Positions 24,215 to 32,368 of a stretch of DNA of 49,414 nt are shown here, one piece after another. The first letter of the stretch is position 1, and the number at the start of each line of letters is the position of its first letter. The translations under genes were made by a program, and so were the position numbers. The notes beneath the pieces are model-generated. The model did no database searches and was not told the origin of the DNA. It was given only the letters and a program-made list of their open reading frames with translations. Origin of the DNA: an uncultured Methylocystaceae bacterium (lineage in GTDB: Bacteria > Pseudomonadota > Alphaproteobacteria > Rhizobiales > Beijerinckiaceae); assembly GCA_903870245.1 (NCBI GenBank), contig CAIQCB010000036.1:1-49414 (forward strand), in the 5' to 3' direction.

Positions 24215-25507
24215 CTAGCCACGATCGATATCGAGGCGCAGAAAATGTGTGGCGCAGGAAATGCAGGGATCATAGTTGCGCACTGTTTGCTCGCAGCGAT
24301 GTCGCAAGGCCTCATCGGACAAATCCAGGAAGCCGCCGATAAACTCGACCAGATCCTCCTCGATACACGCCTGATTCTGCGAGGTTGGCGGCACGATCTG
24401 CGCCTCGGCGATAGCGCCATCTGACTCTAACCGGTAGCGATGGTACAGTAACCCGCGCGGCGCCTCGGTTGCCGCGCAGCCCTCACCCTTACGGGGTTCG
24501 ACCGGCACGAAAGAACTCTTCGGCTCCTGATAGTTTTCGATGATACGCAAGGCTTCGTCGACAGCGTAAAGCGTTTCGACAGCGCGCACGACGATGCTGC
24601 GATAGGGGTTACGGCAGGTTCGATCCAGTCCCGCCTCCAGGGCGGCCTCCTGCGCCAGAACGGACAAACGATCGAAGTTCAAGCTATAGCGCGCCAGTGG
24701 CCCAACAAGATAGGCGGCGCCACTATCACGAAAGCGGGAATGGAGCGCCGTTGATTGCGGCACATGTTTTTCCTCAAAATGGTTTTCGTAATCGCCAGCT
24801 GCAATATCGAGACCGCAATTTGAGACGATGCGTCCTTCATTGAAGGGATATTCATCCTCATGTCTCAGAGCAACGAAGGTATAATCGCGCTCGCGATCCG
24901 GGAAATCCAGCGTGCCTGTCCAACGAACTGTTGCAAGAGCGGCCTCACGCGCCCATTTGAGGTTCTCCTTCAATGTCAAAAGTTCTTTTTTGAGCGGCGT
25001 GCGATAAAAGCCGCCGACCCTAACATTAATCGGGTGAATTTCGCGGCCGCCGAGCAATGTCAAAATCTGATTGCCAACTTTCTTGAGTTGCAAGCCTTGA
25101 CGCACAAGATCACCATGATCGCGCGCCATCTCGACGCCGCCGGCATAACCAAGAAAATCCGGCGCATGCAGCATATAAATATGCAGCACATGGGACTCGA
25201 TCCATTCGCCACAATAGAGGAGACGCCGCAAGGCGCGAAGCTGCGGCGAGAGGGAGACGTCAAAAATATTCTCCAGCGCATGAACAGCGCTCATCTGATA
25301 GGCGACAGGACAAATGCCGCATATACGCGCGACAATATCGGGCGTTTCGTCAAAATGACGACCGCGCAGAAAGGCCTCGAAAAAGCGCGGCGGCTCGAAA
25401 ATATTCAGTTCTGCGCTTCTAACAAGGCCATCGCGGATCGTAACCTTGAGCCCGCCCTCACCCTCGACGCGGGCAAGGACGTCAATCTTGACCGTCTTGC
25501 TGGTCAT
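24215..25507 (-). CDS. hydA: [NiFe] hydrogenase large (alpha) subunit, group 3b
   Basis: The 430-residue catalytic subunit has both nickel-ligand motifs, RICGICP near the N-terminus and DPCISCATH near the C-terminus, with all four cysteines. Nine residues (FLRLDIDRG) follow the final histidine and form the tail expected to be removed by the protease encoded next. Sequence and gene order match cytoplasmic bidirectional NADP-linked (sulf)hydrogenases of group 3b. ATG 25507 overlaps the small-subunit gene by 26 bases. Confidence 0.94.
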
Positions 25508-26279
25508 ATTTTTCGCTTTCCTGGCGAAACGCGTCTGCGTTCGCATTGAATGTCGAATAGAGACGCGCCAGCCCGCGCTGATCCATGCCCAGTTCAGACA
25601 ACCTTGCGCTCAGCGCAGGCGCATTCGGCGTCTCCTTGGGACCGAAACACCCATAGCAGCCTCGATTGTAGGACGGACAAAGCGCTCCGCAGCCCGCATG
25701 GGTGACGGGCCCAAGACAAGGTGCGCCATGTGCGACCATGACACAGGCGACGCCCTTGAGCTTGCATTCGACACAAACACTATGAGCCGGCGTCGCCGGG
25801 CGTCTGCCAGCGATAAAGGCGCCAAGCATCTCGACGAGCTGGCGTTTGTTAATCGGACAACCTCGCAACTCAAAATCAACGCGTACATGATCAGCGATCG
25901 GCGTCGATGTCGAGAGCGTCTCGATATATTCCGGACGCGCATAAACGATCCGGGCGTATTCCGTCACATCCGAAAAGTTCCGCAAAGCCTGAATGCCGCC
26001 GGAGGTGGCGCAGGCGCCAATAACGATCAGTTTTGTCGAGCGCCGACGCACTTCGTGAATTCGAACGGCATCATGCGCCGTGGTGATCGACCCCTCGACA
26101 AGCGAGATATCGTAATGGCCGCTGATCTCGGCGCGAGTCGCCTCGGGAAAATAGGCGATTTCCACTGCCTCCGCGAGACCAAGGATTTCATCTTCGCAAT
26201 CCAGGAGGCTTAACTGGCAGCCGTCACAGGAGGCGAATTTCCAGACGGCCAGCCGCGGTCGTATTTGTCGGCCTGTCAT
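25482..26279 (-). CDS. hydD: [NiFe] hydrogenase small (delta) subunit, group 3b
   Basis: This 265-residue electron-transfer subunit lacks a Tat signal, which fits a soluble cytoplasmic enzyme. The proximal-cluster cysteines are in [25 protein letters not shown] and [10 protein letters not shown]-terminal segment adds [27 protein letters not shown] and GCYGCFGP, which can ligate further [4Fe-4S] clusters as in the group 3b delta subunits. It lies one base after the preceding gene of the operon. Confidence 0.93.
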
Positions 26280-26280
26280 G

Positions 26281-27138
26281 TCACAGCTCCTTGACAGACA
26301 TTAGCGGCCCCATCCGTTCAAAGGTGAAAACCGGGCCATCACGACAAATAAAGGCTGGACCCAGCTGACAATGACCGCAGTGACCAATGGCGCATTTCAT
26401 ATTGCGTTCCATGGACAAAAAAATCCTGCCGACGCCAAGACCTTTTTCAGTCAATGACGCGGCAACGAAACGCATCATCACCTCCGGACCACAAAGCATA
26501 GCAATAGTGCGCGATACGTCCATGTTAACATGCGATAGCAGCCCTGTGACGACGCCAACATGACCCGGCCAGTCCATACCGGCATGATCGACCGTGATAT
26601 TAACGTCAATGTGGCCTTTCTTGCGCCACTCTTCAATCTCGGAGCGATAGAGAATGTCCTCGGGTCTGCGCGCCCCATACAACAGCCACACATCGCCAAA
26701 ATGTTCACGTCGCGAGAGAATATGATAAATCGCCGGCCTCAAAGGCGCGAGACCCAAACCGCCCGCGACGATAACAACATCCTGCCCTTCAGCGGTCGCC
26801 ATTGGCCAGCCCACGCCAAAGGGACCGCGCACACCGACAGGATCATTCGGCGCCAGGCGCGTCAGGGCATGAGAAACCGGGCCGACGTCGCGGATCGTAT
26901 GAATAAGACGCCCTTGTCCCGGCGGGCCGCTGATGCTGATCGCCGACTCCCCAACGCCAAATGCTGTAAGCATGTTAAATTGACCGGGCGTATAACTAAA
27001 TGGCACACTCTCGGCGAATTCGATCTCCAGAGTCCATGCGTCCGGAGCGTCATGACGTCGCTTGCGCACATAACAAAGTTTCGGCACGTCCGCTGGCGCC
27101 CCAGAGCGCGCGTCGATCGCTGTAGGTTTTAGCGACAT
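26281..27138 (-). CDS. hydG: hydrogenase FAD/NAD(P)-binding (gamma) subunit
   Basis: The 285-residue reductase subunit has a ferredoxin-reductase-like FAD domain ([16 protein letters not shown]) and an NAD(P)-binding domain ([29 protein letters not shown]). A C-terminal [2Fe-2S] motif has four cysteines in [19 protein letters not shown]. It passes electrons between the iron-sulphur chain and NADP(H). ATG 27138 (MSLKPT) has GAGGT upstream and is preferred over the longer open frame. Confidence 0.92.
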
Positions 27139-27145
27139 AGTCACC

Positions 27146-27607
27146 TCAGGACCTCGCACCGTAGAGATCAAGCAGTTGCACCCGGCAAGCATGCAATCGT
27201 TCGATCAAAACTGGCAAAACCCGCTTGGTCAAAGCGTAACCCAGCGCGGGATCGCTCTCGCATTTCTGGCGCAAGCAGGCAGCGTTTAGCGCCACCGCAA
27301 GAGTTGGCGCGATAGCCCGGGCATCGTAGGACCATCGGTAGGGCGACGCGAGCCAATTAACCCCAAAAACCTCTCCCGGCCCGACAGTGAGGAAAGTCGC
27401 TGGACCACGACCGGGAGCTGCAATCTGAAGAGCAACGCGCCCCTCACGAACAAGATAGAAATGATCTGCGGCCTCACCTTCATGAAAGATAAATTCTCCG
27501 GCCCCAAAATGCGCGTCCTGCGCGCAACTGACCGCCAGAGTGGCGAAGGAATTATCCAGTCCTGCGAAGAAAGGATGCGCACACAGATTATATTCAAGCT
27601 TTTCCAA
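27146..27607 (-). CDS. cyclic-nucleotide-binding-domain protein in the hydrogenase operon
   Basis: The protein of about 153 residues is a single cNMP-binding beta-barrel ([23 protein letters not shown] in parts, then [11 protein letters not shown]) with no DNA-binding domain. It sits between the beta and gamma subunit genes. TTG 27607 follows the hydB stop by ten bases and has GAGAG upstream. An open frame extends to 27724 inside hydB but would overlap it by more than 100 bases. Similar proteins occur in group 3b operons of other bacteria. A sensory or structural role is likely, but the ligand is unknown. Confidence 0.8.
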
Positions 27608-27617
27608 AACGCGACTC

Positions 27618-28739
27618 TCAGCCTGTTTGGGCGCCGGCGATCGCCTGCACCTCTTGCGTGATGTCAATCCCGACCGGGCACCAGGTGATGCAGCGTCCGC
27701 AACCAACGCATCCAGATGAGCCAAATTGCTCGATCCAGGTTGAAAGCTTATGCGTCATCCACTGTCGATATCGTGAGGCGACGGTGTTTCGGACGCCACC
27801 GCCGTGGAGATAGGAAAAATCCATGGTAAAACAGGAGTCCCAACGTCTCTCGCGCGCGAAGCTCTCTCCTGCAAGATCAGAAATATCTTCGACTGTCGTG
27901 CAGAAACATGTCGGACAGACCAGTGTGCAATTGGCGCAGGACAGACATCGTTCCGCGACCTCCTGCCAGCGCGGGTGAAGGAGATTATCCGCCAATAACC
28001 TGGGAACATCTACATCGGGCGGCATTGATCTGCCCATCGTCAGCGCTGTGCGCTCAACAATGGATTTTGCCGTTTCGATTTCATGCTCAGTGGCCGGTCT
28101 ACTCCCGATCTCCAGTAAAAGCTCCTGCCCAGCCGGCGAACCGGCTTCGACGACGAAAAGATGCTCATCGGCTGGCGACAGCTCCGTAAGGGCGAGATCG
28201 AAGGGCCCCCTGACCTCCGGACCAGTCCCCATGGATGCACAAAAGCAGCAACCGCCAGCCTTTCCGCAATTCACAGCGATAAGAAGCGTATTTTCACGCC
28301 GTGTTTGGTAATGCGTATCGACATAATCGCCGCCTGTCAGAACACGATCCTGTTTGGAGATTGCAGCAAGCTCGCAGGCCCTCACGCCAATGAACGCATA
28401 GGTCTCATTATTGCCGCCAGAGGCTTCGATTATAAGATTTTCACCCTCTCGTCGCGCACGCCATAGTTCAATTTGTGAAGGATGAAGAAATTTTTTCCAA
28501 ACGTGTGGCCCTACAGAAAAACCAAAATACGATTGGTCTGCCGCTTCGACGAGGCGATAGCCGCCGGGAGTTTGTTCATCGGTCAAACCGACAGGAAAAT
28601 CGTTTACAGACTGGATATCCTCATAGACAACGACGCCATCACCCCTCACCGGTCCCAGAACGCGGCGCCCGGCGCCAATCAAGACATCGATCAGCTTTTG
28701 TAATTGTTCATCCGTAATCACGCGCTTGTCAGCATTCAT
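27618..28739 (-). CDS. hydB: hydrogenase iron-sulphur (beta) subunit
   Basis: The 373-residue subunit ends in a two-[4Fe-4S] ferredoxin-type region, with [16 protein letters not shown] and [16 protein letters not shown]. Additional cysteines upstream ([14 protein letters not shown]) are typical of the HydB/sulfhydrogenase beta family. It links the small subunit to the flavin subunit. It is the first gene of the operon. ATG 28739 (MNADKRVI) is chosen because the residues upstream in the open frame do not resemble the family. Confidence 0.92.
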
Positions 28740-29139
28740 GTTTCTGACGCCTTGACTGAAATGCAGGTTCGGGGCGCATAAGAGCCGGACCAGAATATGC
28801 GGCATCGTTGGTGCGGCGAGAAACTTGCCAGCCTCGAAGCTAACCCGATCATCGGCTACGTCTCCGGAACTCTTCAAGTGAGAGGGTCCTGGCACAGGCG
28901 ACAGGTTATCAGACCAAGCGAGTTCTTCTCAATAGAAGGTCAAACAGCTATTTGTGCTGAACCGTGGCAGAATTACAACATTTTTTTCCACAAAATATCA
29001 ATTAATTACACCATGGCCTAACTTTCAGGCGACATATCTGGGCATAACGCGCTTCAACGGCTCTCCCGAGGATTGACCAGCTTTCGCCTACCCATGAGAG
29101 TTGGGTCCGTTATCTTAGAATGGGGCGGGAGAGAGAGTT
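28740..29139. other. divergent gene-free region upstream of the hydrogenase operon
   Basis: Four hundred bases with no credible gene, expected to hold the promoters of the hydrogenase operon (minus) and of the 70-residue protein gene (plus). An AT-rich block lies near 28975-29015. I looked for FNR/FixK-type TTGAT-N4-ATCAA and sigma-54 sites and found only isolated half-sites. Confidence 0.4.
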
Positions 29140-29425: not shown

Positions 29426-30340
29426 TCAAGGTCGATGATCATAAAGCTTGGCGCGCCATCGAGGGGCGTCAGCTGGTGTAAAATCCAGCTCCCACTGGAA
29501 TTGCGAAAGAAAATTATATCCAAATATAATGGGGGTTCGAGCCCCAAGCGCTTCTCGTAGAACGCCAAAATCATAGGCGAGGATGTAAAGTCCTTTCAGA
29601 ATTCGTCCCTCGCCAATATCGATTTCCTTGAGCCTGTATAATTTCGGCGCCCATTTCGCGCCACCAGCTTCGCTGACCTTGAGACGATGCTTGACGGGGG
29701 TGAAATGTTCGGTGTGACTCTTGACAAATGTAAGATCGACCGCCGAAAGCTCCGCGCCGCTATCGAATAAACCTATAACAGGCGCATCGCCAATCTGAGC
29801 CTTTAAACCAACCAATCGCCGGTCGCCCCCCAGCATTACAAAAGTTTGAAATTGTTGACTCGGGGAGGCCTTCGGATCGGGAAAAACAATTTCCCGCCGA
29901 GCGAGATCGAGTTGAAAACGTGTGCCTTTAAAGAAATCAACGCCTAATAAATCGTCGCCATCGCTGCTTGCACACCGTGTCAAAGTGTATTTTGCACGAC
30001 CGATACTTGGTCCCTGCACCGCCTTAAGCAGAACGTTTTTCGCCTCGACGTCATCGCAATGAGTCGATTTTCCGGAGGATCCTATCGACTCCGTCTGACC
30101 GACAACCGGAAAATCCTTGTTCCAAAGGGCAAAGGTTATACGCGACGAAGTTGCGCCAGTATCAAGCCGCATCATGCCGAGGACATTGCCAAATCGAACG
30201 GGCGCGTAAATACGCCCCCCACCATACTCGCCTTCGTTGAGGGATAGCGGAATCGTCGAATTATGTTCATCGGAAATTGCTGGACAAGTGGTCGGAAATA
30301 GTAAAATTAAAATTACAAGCAGTCGATTTATTGAATGCAT
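29426..30340 (-). CDS. secreted retropepsin-like aspartic protease with two active-site motifs
   Basis: The 304-residue protein has a signal peptide (about residues 1-23, LLVILILLFPTTCPA) and two retropepsin-type half-domains. The first has LDTGATSSR (Asp60) and LLGVDFF; the second has FDSGAELSAVD (Asp193) and IIFGYNFL. Each D-[TS]-G triad plus hydrophobic-hydrophobic-Gly element is the minimum of one aspartic-protease lobe. A single chain could therefore fold as an intramolecular pseudo-dimer, as in pepsin. ATG 30340 is preceded by GGAGGCG. The substrate is unknown and the location should be periplasmic. Confidence 0.78.
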   Translation of the reverse strand: MHSINRLLVILILLFPTTCPAISDEHNSTIPLSLNEGEYGGGRIYAPVRFGNVLGMMRLDTGATSSRITFALWNKDFPVVGQTESIGSSGKSTHCDDVEAKNVLLKAVQGPSIGRAKYTLTRCASSDGDDLLGVDFFKGTRFQLDLARREIVFPDPKASPSQQFQTFVMLGGDRRLVGLKAQIGDAPVIGLFDSGAELSAVDLTFVKSHTEHFTPVKHRLKVSEAGGAKWAPKLYRLKEIDIGEGRILKGLYILAYDFGVLREALGARTPIIFGYNFLSQFQWELDFTPADAPRWRAKLYDHRP

Positions 30341-31090
30341 GTAACGCCTCCCACTTAGTTTGCCCGGATCGCCAAAGATGCTTGCTTGCCAATCAGGACG
30401 ATCACATTCGCTCGGAGCTGCGATCATTGCAAGAAAAGAGATTTCACCTGGCCAACCCAAACAGGAGAATTTCAACGAGCGCAAAGCCTAGCGTCATCGA
30501 TATGCAGTTTGTGCCGGCAAGATACGCCATTTTGGCCAAGATACCAGCGACCATCGAACGAAGAGCGATTTTATGAATTGCACGCATTCCAGTTTTATCG
30601 ATCAGGCGACACCCATTACACCGGGCCGCGTCTCTACTCCCCGTCATTCGAACTTAATTGAATGAAAAATATAGGTCTACAGGTGCTTGAAGTATTATTG
30701 CCTCCTGCAATATGTTTGTATAATTGACGGAAGTGATCAAGGAGATCAAATTATTCGCCAGTCCCAAACCTACGCCAGCGTCCTGATCCAGCAAAGGATG
30801 GAGGCCACGAAAAGCCTGTCGGCAATAGCCCCAGCATTACGTCACCAAATGCAAAAATGACGCAGGCGGCAGTTTTCATCACCCTCCAGGTACGACCAAA
30901 ATATTTCGCGGAGTCATACTCGCCCGGAATTCCTGGATCATCTAATAACGACACGTCATCCCGTCGGGAGCAGATTCATGCTCGGAGGACGCAGATAATC
31001 CATGGCGGGGCGATAGGGGCATACATGTGTCAAACTTGATATTTCTCCCGGTGAATATTTAGAGAGAATGAAATAAAGATCAGATTAACT
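30341..31090. other. gene-poor AT-richer region
   Basis: About 750 bases lie between two minus-strand genes for secreted proteins. Only short frames occur. The best (minus strand, 30751-30954, 67 codons) has a hydrophobic stretch and may be a gene remnant, but nothing supports expression. The promoter of the aspartic protease gene should lie at the low-coordinate end. Confidence 0.35.
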
Positions 31091-31495
31091 TTACTGAATC
31101 AACCTTTGTAATTTTTTTCCCTCTTTACTGTTAAATTCCATTTCATCCAAGCCGCCGTTCTTATCCTTGTCAGCAGCGCGCAAAAGACTATCGGCGACAG
31201 CAAAATACTCATTTTTATCCAGCAGATCATCTTTATCTGTATCTGCTTTTTTATATTCCACTTTTGATAGACGGTTACCGGACGAATGGAGATCAATTTT
31301 GCCATCCCCATCACTGTCGATGTTATCAAAAGTGTCGCTTGCCGCCTTGCCCATCTCGGAAATATCGATGGTCTTGTCGCTATCGCTGTCGAGGTCAGCA
31401 ACCGGAGAAGCCGTGTGACTATCGGGGCCAGCCATGGCTGGCCCACTCAATGCGCCGGCAAGAACGGCAATTCCGAATAGACGAATGAGATGCAT
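31091..31495 (-). CDS. lanmodulin-like four-EF-hand periplasmic protein
   Basis: The 134-residue protein has a signal peptide of 22 residues (ending GPAMA) and four EF-hand loops starting at residues 36, 60, 85 and 109. The 24/25/24 spacing, with only 12-13 residues between loops, matches lanmodulin and differs from calmodulin-type pairs. Each loop has Asp at positions 1, 3 and 9, and loops 1, 3 and 4 have Glu at 12. Loop 2 ends in Ser instead of Glu. The mature length of 112 residues equals that of lanmodulin. The Pro at loop position 2 that marks classic lanmodulin is missing (Ser, Ser, Thr, Lys). GGGAGAAC precedes ATG 31495, and a small CTGCC/GGCAG inverted repeat lies at 31516-31533 in the leader. 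Lanthanide or calcium binding is inferred. Confidence 0.82.
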   Translation of the reverse strand: MHLIRLFGIAVLAGALSGPAMAGPDSHTASPVADLDSDSDKTIDISEMGKAASDTFDNIDSDGDGKIDLHSSGNRLSKVEYKKADTDKDDLLDKNEYFAVADSLLRAADKDKNGGLDEMEFNSKEGKKLQRLIQ

Positions 31496-31801: not shown

Positions 31802-32368
31802 GTGTCAGAGACGAAACAGGAACCCGAAGATCTTATCCGGTCAAGATATAGAGAACTCGAAAAATATATACCTCGTCGCGTTATGCCCTCTCAGGCCGAT
31901 AGCCGCATGACGAGCCGGAAAGGGCAAGAAACAGCGCATGAGAATACACGTGAAGCCGATTATGAAAACTTCGTCAATTCGGTCAAAACATCATCGCTCG
32001 CGCTAAGAGAACTGGCTCGCAGAAACCAGGAGCTTACAGAACATAATCAGGAAATCCAGTCTCAGGCTGAACGGATTATAGAATCCGTACGTAATGAACT
32101 GGCGAATGAAAGGTCGCGAATTTCCGGTCTCGAAAGTGAACTCAGCACATTGAGAACAGAATCTGCGAGATTGGTGAACGAGAGCGCGACACGGATCAGG
32201 GAACTTGAGGCGCTGACCGTTTCTCTTTCCGAAAAACTGGAAAATACGACGCATGAGCTGAAAAGCGCCAGGGACTGGTTGCATTATCTTTGCTCGCAGG
32301 CTGCGGGCGATCTCAGCGAGGCGCTGGCGGAAGCAGATCGCCTGATGACCGAAAACTCACAAAATTAA
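31802..32368 (+). CDS. coiled-coil protein, function unknown
   Basis: The 188-residue protein is hydrophilic and almost entirely helical from about residue 50 on, with heptad-rich segments such as LALRELARRNQELTEHNQE and ISGLESELSTLRTE. There is no signal peptide or membrane segment. GTG 31802 has AGAGG six bases upstream. It lies 72 bases before an ABC-F gene on the same strand. No family is recognised. Confidence 0.65.
   Translation: MSETKQEPEDLIRSRYRELEKYIPRRVMPSQADSRMTSRKGQETAHENTREADYENFVNSVKTSSLALRELARRNQELTEHNQEIQSQAERIIESVRNELANERSRISGLESELSTLRTESARLVNESATRIRELEALTVSLSEKLENTTHELKSARDWLHYLCSQAAGDLSEALAEADRLMTENSQN

Follow-up and report, generated by a model that had tools for sequence, protein, structure and literature searches.

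The stretch of DNA analysed here (the window) comprises positions 1 to 49,414 of contig CAIQCB010000036.1, from the assembly of an uncultured Methylocystaceae bacterium (GCA_903870245.1). On its reverse strand lies a short gene, hereafter lanM, whose product resembles lanmodulin (LanM) and carries four EF-hand loops, EF1 to EF4 (Table 1). The start codon is preceded by a stretch that, by eye, is rich in purines. Our translation of the open reading frame (ORF) places the loops at residues 36, 60, 85 and 109, which gives start-to-start distances of 24/25/24 and gaps of 12, 13 and 12 residues, and cleavage after the AMA motif (residue 22; by eye) would leave a mature part of 112 residues. This geometry had been noted in a first-pass annotation made from the letters alone, as had the residues at position 2 of the loops and the Ser that closes loop 2, and all of these were recovered from the translated frame. 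Position 1 is Asp, position 9 is Asp in all four loops, and position 7 is Thr, Lys, Leu and Gly in loops 1 to 4.

Table 1. The lanM gene, its predicted parts and two neighbouring genes (positions in the window).
Feature	Position	Strand	Details
lanM-like coding sequence	31091..31495	-	134 residues plus stop codon; ATG start; NCBIfam NF053806, E 5.5e-30
Putative Sec signal peptide	31430..31495	-	Residues 1-22, assigned by eye with cleavage after AMA; low confidence in the structure model
EF1 loop	31355..31390	-	Residues 36-47, DSDSDKTIDISE; position 2 Ser, position 12 Glu
EF2 loop	31283..31318	-	Residues 60-71, DSDGDGKIDLHS; position 2 Ser, position 12 Ser, not Glu
EF3 loop	31208..31243	-	Residues 85-96, DTDKDDLLDKNE; position 2 Thr, position 12 Glu
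EF4 loop	31136..31171	-	Residues 109-120, DKDKNGGLDEME; position 2 Lys, position 5 Asn, position 7 Gly, position 12 Glu
Coiled-coil-like protein	31802..32368	+	Found in the host genome and JZJ.7 only (2/39 genomes of the genus)
Retropepsin-like aspartic protease	29426..30484	-	Found in 35/39 genomes of the genus

The assignment of the protein to the lanmodulins is supported by profile searches, trees and a predicted fold. Specifically, the NCBIfam lanmodulin model NF053806 matched residues 11–134 with 104.1 bits, and a chance resemblance to LanM was rejected on its E value. The best sequence matches in the Protein Data Bank (PDB), all free of gaps, were 6mi5 (Mex-LanM, from Methylorubrum extorquens AM1; E 1.3e-16), 8fns, 9pi2 (whose entry name is that of a lanthanum-bound protein of Ancylobacter lacus), and 8dq2. 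Pfam returned generic EF-hand matches only, the best of them to EF-hand_1 (28.5 bits). In our family-wide search, the protein scored 103.3 bits with the LanM model, and the eight weakest matches (42.2 to 52.5 bits) are other EF-hand proteins according to the tree. The next matches to this model in the host genome scored 19 and 13.4 bits, and the search found no second LanM-like gene there; the Pfam model EF-hand_5 gave no match in the genome although lanM is present, because that model is too short for such a search. The predicted fold is the LanM fold, within 1.0 Å of Mex-LanM over 105 residues (39% identity), a match far above those to the calcium EF-hand proteins listed in the structure comparison.

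A survey of 696 LanMs published in Nature in 2023 built its set on four EF-hands, their spacing and protein length, and listed Pro at position 2 (Pro2) of one or more loops as the third hallmark (PMC10232371). Our protein has four EF-hand motifs, and adjacent EF-hands are 12–13 residues apart, not the about 25 residues between adjacent loops that are typical of calmodulin-type calcium EF-hand proteins. Its four 12-residue loops align with LanM loops, although loop 2 is degenerate at position 12. None of them has Pro2, and we therefore refer to the protein as a LanM homologue or variant and not as a canonical lanmodulin.

The window was assigned to the genus Methylocystis, and relatives of the LanM variant were sought in 39 genomes of the genus and 298 genomes of the family. 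Matches were found in 36 of the 39 genus genomes. The closest relative (62% identity) is encoded in the metagenome-assembled genome (MAG) of Methylocystis sp. JZJ.7 (G035), and the best match in each other genome of the genus had 37–47% identity. At the family level, LanM was matched at E 1e-8 in 107 of 298 genomes, and in 90 of 298 a match exceeded the model cut-off of 135 bits. For a census of the loops, we aligned 153 ORFs (138 distinct) that matched the LanM profile in the loci of both searches; ten rows of other EF-hand proteins, three fragments and a duplicate of the LanM variant were left out, giving 125 distinct LanM-like proteins.

The distinctive part of the LanM variant is the loss of Glu at position 12 (Glu12) of loop 2, which it has in common with one sister species. 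This residue is kept in 123 of the 125 proteins, the exceptions being the LanM variant (Ser) and JZJ.7 (Ala). Other departures at position 12 were confined to one protein with Gln in loop 1 and two whose loop 4 is one residue short in the alignment. A wider scan of contigs with an alignment query yielded 237 relatives, and among the best 80 loci, with 82 ORFs scored, JZJ.7 had the only LanM without loop-2 Glu12; two further ORFs, which have Asp at this position, encode EF-hand proteins of another kind next to lanM. Scanning genome contigs with the sequence of the LanM variant alone found no relative where the alignment query succeeded, and one scan of viral contigs with the LanM variant found none. 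Loops 2 and 4 fall outside the PROSITE EF-hand pattern, but since only 3 of the 81 other ORFs scored match it in all four loops, these misses do not set the LanM variant apart. Among the open-access papers listed by our searches, supplements aside, we found no description of a natural LanM without loop-2 Glu12; a 2025 survey of methanotrophs reports sequences without known motifs that are possibly LanM or calmodulin variants (PMC12482762). Sequencing error as the source of the odd loop 2 was rejected on the evidence of the Ala in a second species.

The first-pass annotation had also stressed the missing prolines; these are indeed absent, but their absence is less special than was thought. Only a minority of the proteins (17 of 125) have Pro2 in every loop, and a complete lack of it is uncommon without being unique (15 proteins); 37 proteins have one, 44 have two and 12 have three. 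By loop, Pro2 occurs in 29, 21, 109, and 70 proteins for loops 1 to 4. In the 32 other rows of the genus Pro2 is confined to loops 3 and 4 (0, 0, 30, and 23 for loops 1 to 4), and with the LanM variant included (n = 33), 23 genus rows have two Pro2, seven have one and three have none. Absence of Pro2 as a unique trait was thus rejected. Similarly, Asp9 in all four loops, which had been taken for a lanmodulin feature, is present in the LanM variant but is no rule among LanMs (34/125), and we rejected it as a mark of the family. The 24/25/24 spacing is found in 121/125 proteins, and Thr occupies position 7 of all four loops in 105/125.

The LanM of JZJ.7 (contig JALRFG010000047.1) resembles the LanM variant in having neither Pro2 nor loop-2 Glu12 and in its gene neighbourhood, but it has a canonical loop 4 (DEDKDGTLDDKE) and Asn9 in loop 3. 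The two were paired in each of three trees. In a quick tree of 136 rows the pair (support 100) lies in a 29-row set drawn entirely from the genus (95); in a careful tree of 74 rows the pair (100/100) lies in a 20-row set of the genus (98/93); and in a tree that omitted the outgroup and loop positions 2 and 12 the pair (100/99) again lies in a 20-row all-genus set (95/93). Most other Methylocystis LanMs belong to the same set, but they keep loop-2 Glu12 and differ in their surroundings (ten neighbourhoods compared). The stem branch of the pair is long (0.57 changes per column in the careful tree). Between the two species, the proportion of nonsynonymous differences (pN) is 0.184 in the mature part and 0.253 in the full frame, against a saturated synonymous proportion (pS) of 0.881 in the mature part; four neighbouring genes have pN of 0.08–0.20. 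These comparisons indicate that lanM is constrained and kept in the sister species under purifying selection. Judged by its sequence, the protein is a real and conserved lanmodulin variant that lacks one proposed hallmark.

The earlier suggestion that the genome may use lanthanides gained indirect support. A pyrroloquinoline quinone (PQQ) dehydrogenase model matched only two N-terminal pieces in the host genome, one closing contig C61 and the other opening contig C34. The two contig ends share an exact 141-base sequence, a pattern expected when an assembly is interrupted by a duplicated gene, and the congeners G036 and G037 have similar N-terminal dehydrogenase pieces at contig starts. Over 40 residues the two XoxF-like pieces are identical to each other and have 35 residues in common with the JZJ.7 dehydrogenase. 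The latter is a full XoxF, whose best matches among solved structures are lanthanide-dependent XoxF enzymes (6oc5, 999 bits; 6dam, 951 bits; highest-scoring chain with another name, 658 bits). Next to one of the pieces is a gene for a quinoprotein relay hydrolase, and pqqC is present. Searches of the host genome and of JZJ.7 (81% complete) gave no match to MxaI, the calcium enzyme's small subunit, which 26 of the 39 genus genomes encode. The host genome has a marker-based completeness of 99.95%, although duplicated genes can still drop out of such assemblies. This is likely the case for pmoA (PF02461), which was not found in the host genome and is present in 31/39 genomes of the genus; as it is missing too from the near-complete congeners G021, G028, and G037, we read its absence as an assembly gap and not as biology. 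Overall, XoxF-based methanol oxidation is likely in the host, and the genome content makes it probable that the calcium methanol dehydrogenase is absent. As a separate observation, one of the two xoxF-like copies has a long Ala/Pro-rich N-terminal extension.

Our favoured explanation, which we regard as rather probable taken as a whole, is that this gene encodes the lanmodulin of a Methylocystis species in whose genome no other LanM-like gene was found, that this protein is one of a small sub-lineage of rapidly changed LanMs, and that it has two weak and two good metal sites with a reduced preference for lanthanides over calcium. The protein would be exported to the periplasm by its putative signal peptide, would fold on binding lanthanide ions as Mex-LanM does, and may buffer or shuttle lanthanides in a cell that oxidises methanol with XoxF. 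In Hans-LanM (Hansschlegelia quercus; PDB 8DQ2, 8FNR), Glu12 is a bidentate ligand in EF1–3, the EF-hands form the pairs EF2/EF3 and EF1/EF4, and EF4 is weak (PMC10232371). Without this bidentate Glu12, EF2 of the LanM variant would bind weakly, and EF4 (Asn5, Gly7) may also be weak, EF4 being already a weak site in Mex-LanM. Two such weak loops would leave one good site in each pair, namely EF1 in EF1/EF4 and EF3 in EF2/EF3.

Pro2 has been put forward as one reason why lanmodulin discriminates lanthanides from calcium, and its replacement by Ala in Mex-LanM lowers selectivity over calcium while lanthanide affinity is kept (PMC12603986, citing earlier work). By analogy, the LanM variant would prefer lanthanides over calcium less strongly than Mex-LanM does, and the lanthanide affinity of its intact loops would be largely kept; an altered metal preference, as first proposed, is plausible. 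Compared with Mex-LanM (PDB 6MI5, 8FNS), the LanM variant is alike in the spacing of four loops, in its gap-free alignment and in fold, but it has Pro2 in 0/4 loops and Glu12 in 3/4 where Mex-LanM has both in 4/4, and it differs in Asn5 and Gly7 of loop 4. Hans-LanM is more distant (28% identity). It keeps one Pro2 (PMC12603986), whereas the LanM variant has none, and it has Asn1 and Glu9 as ligands (PMC10232371), whereas the LanM variant has Asp1 and Asp9 as in Mex-LanM.

Several points weigh against this explanation and call for caution. The profile score of 104.1 bits is below the NF053806 equivalog cut-off of 135 bits, and the structure model was built on a LanM alignment, which favours the LanM fold. 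By the approximately unbiased (AU) test, neither a tree that places the pair beyond all other LanMs (p 0.123) nor one that excludes it from the 18 further Methylocystis rows in its set (p 0.28) is rejected, since an alignment of about 100 columns does not suffice to fix the exact branching. The LanM tree does not simply mirror the genus, with four Methylocystis rows (G017, G001 twice, and G004) branching in other parts of it. The body of xoxF is missing from the assembly, and XoxF is read from the N-terminal pieces and the JZJ.7 MAG. Finally, deletion of lanM in M. aquaticum 22A hinders neither growth on methanol nor XoxF metalation (PMC9260416), which leaves the shuttle role itself unsettled.

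Among other explanations, it is conceivable, though in our view unlikely, that the substitutions are near-neutral drift in an ordinary LanM, which, like Mex-LanM, would be highly selective and bind about three lanthanides at picomolar affinity, water or a neighbouring ligand taking the place of loop-2 Glu12. The natural variability of Pro2 in our census fits this, as does the unchanged predicted fold. It would also be consistent with the LanM of M. aquaticum 22A, where Thr (loop 1) and Lys (loop 2) stand in for Pro2 but La still induces a change of shape (PMC9260416). However, the near-complete retention of loop-2 Glu12 argues that this residue matters, and the published Pro-to-Ala change did alter selectivity.

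We give a still smaller chance to a calcium-binding EF-hand protein, either an ancestral LanM turned into a periplasmic calcium buffer by the loss of Pro2 or a protein that is not a LanM by descent. Its position-2 residues do resemble those of ordinary EF-hands, where Lys is commonest and Thr is frequent too (PMC12603986), generic Pfam models match, and the AU test allows a placement outside other LanMs. On the other hand, the LanM profile score, the spacing common to nearly all LanM-like proteins, the grouping with Methylocystis LanMs in three trees and the absence of MxaI from the matches in both genomes all speak against it, as does the modelled fold. Placement inside a calcium EF-hand family, the outcome that had been named as refuting the lanmodulin assignment, did not occur, and we rejected such a family as closest kin on profile score and fold match; the AU test alone would not have done so.

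Slightly less probable again is a LanM that is decaying as selection on it relaxes, its lineage having lost the need for it; although the stem branch is long, a conserved ligand is gone, one genus genome (G015, 92% complete) has no LanM match and another (G002) has a second, damaged-looking LanM-like copy with pieces in two frames (L085, contig C4), the frame is open in both species, pN is well below the saturated pS, and the loss of loop-2 Glu12 is common to two species that keep Glu12 in the other three loops.

A further step from our favoured explanation can be offered only tentatively, and we think it has a smaller chance of being right than of being wrong. This sub-lineage may have been rebuilt into a two-site LanM with one strong site per EF pair and relaxed calcium discrimination, fixed in Methylocystis species that depend on XoxF only, and working as a loose, fast-exchanging carrier or as a sensor that weighs lanthanides against calcium, not as a tight sink. 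How lanmodulin discriminates lanthanides from calcium is not fully explained. A natural relative without Pro2 and without one conserved ligand, in a genome apparently reliant on XoxF and with both traits in a sister species, could help to tell the contributions of Pro2 and Glu12 apart in a background that is not engineered. As a divergent scaffold, the LanM variant would also extend the range under study for separating rare earths.

With regard to the surroundings, the LanM variant and JZJ.7 have in common genes for an ABC-F protein (86% identity), a lytic transglycosylase (87%), the coiled-coil protein (71%), and the retropepsin-like protein (69%). Apart from distant ABC proteins, these genes were not shared with ten LanM neighbourhoods of nine other congeners (L067–L076). 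For the coiled-coil-like gene there is a shared neighbourhood only and no evidence of a functional link to lanM. A link of lanM to the retropepsin-like gene was rejected, as this gene is widespread in the genus yet occurs in 0/10 of the compared congener LanM neighbourhoods (JZJ.7 aside). To the left of the lanM region, a soluble [NiFe]-hydrogenase or sulfhydrogenase-like operon (24215–28895, reverse strand) encodes ShyA-, ShyD-, and ShyC-like subunits, an Fe-S subunit and a protein that binds cyclic nucleotide monophosphates.

Elsewhere in the search, a second, different EF-hand ORF adjoins lanM in some Methylocystis genomes (L020:913–1398 and L017:913–1398, both on the reverse strand, also L224 and L214). 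Two loci, L160 and L161 (genomes G124 and G147), carry divergent gene pairs for four-loop EF-hand proteins without Pro2 and mostly with Ser9, which are close to LanM in the profile search and outside LanM in the tree. G001 has two lanM copies, and in G001 and G004 lanM lies ~1.5–3 kb from a PQQ methanol dehydrogenase gene (L073, L074, and L075).
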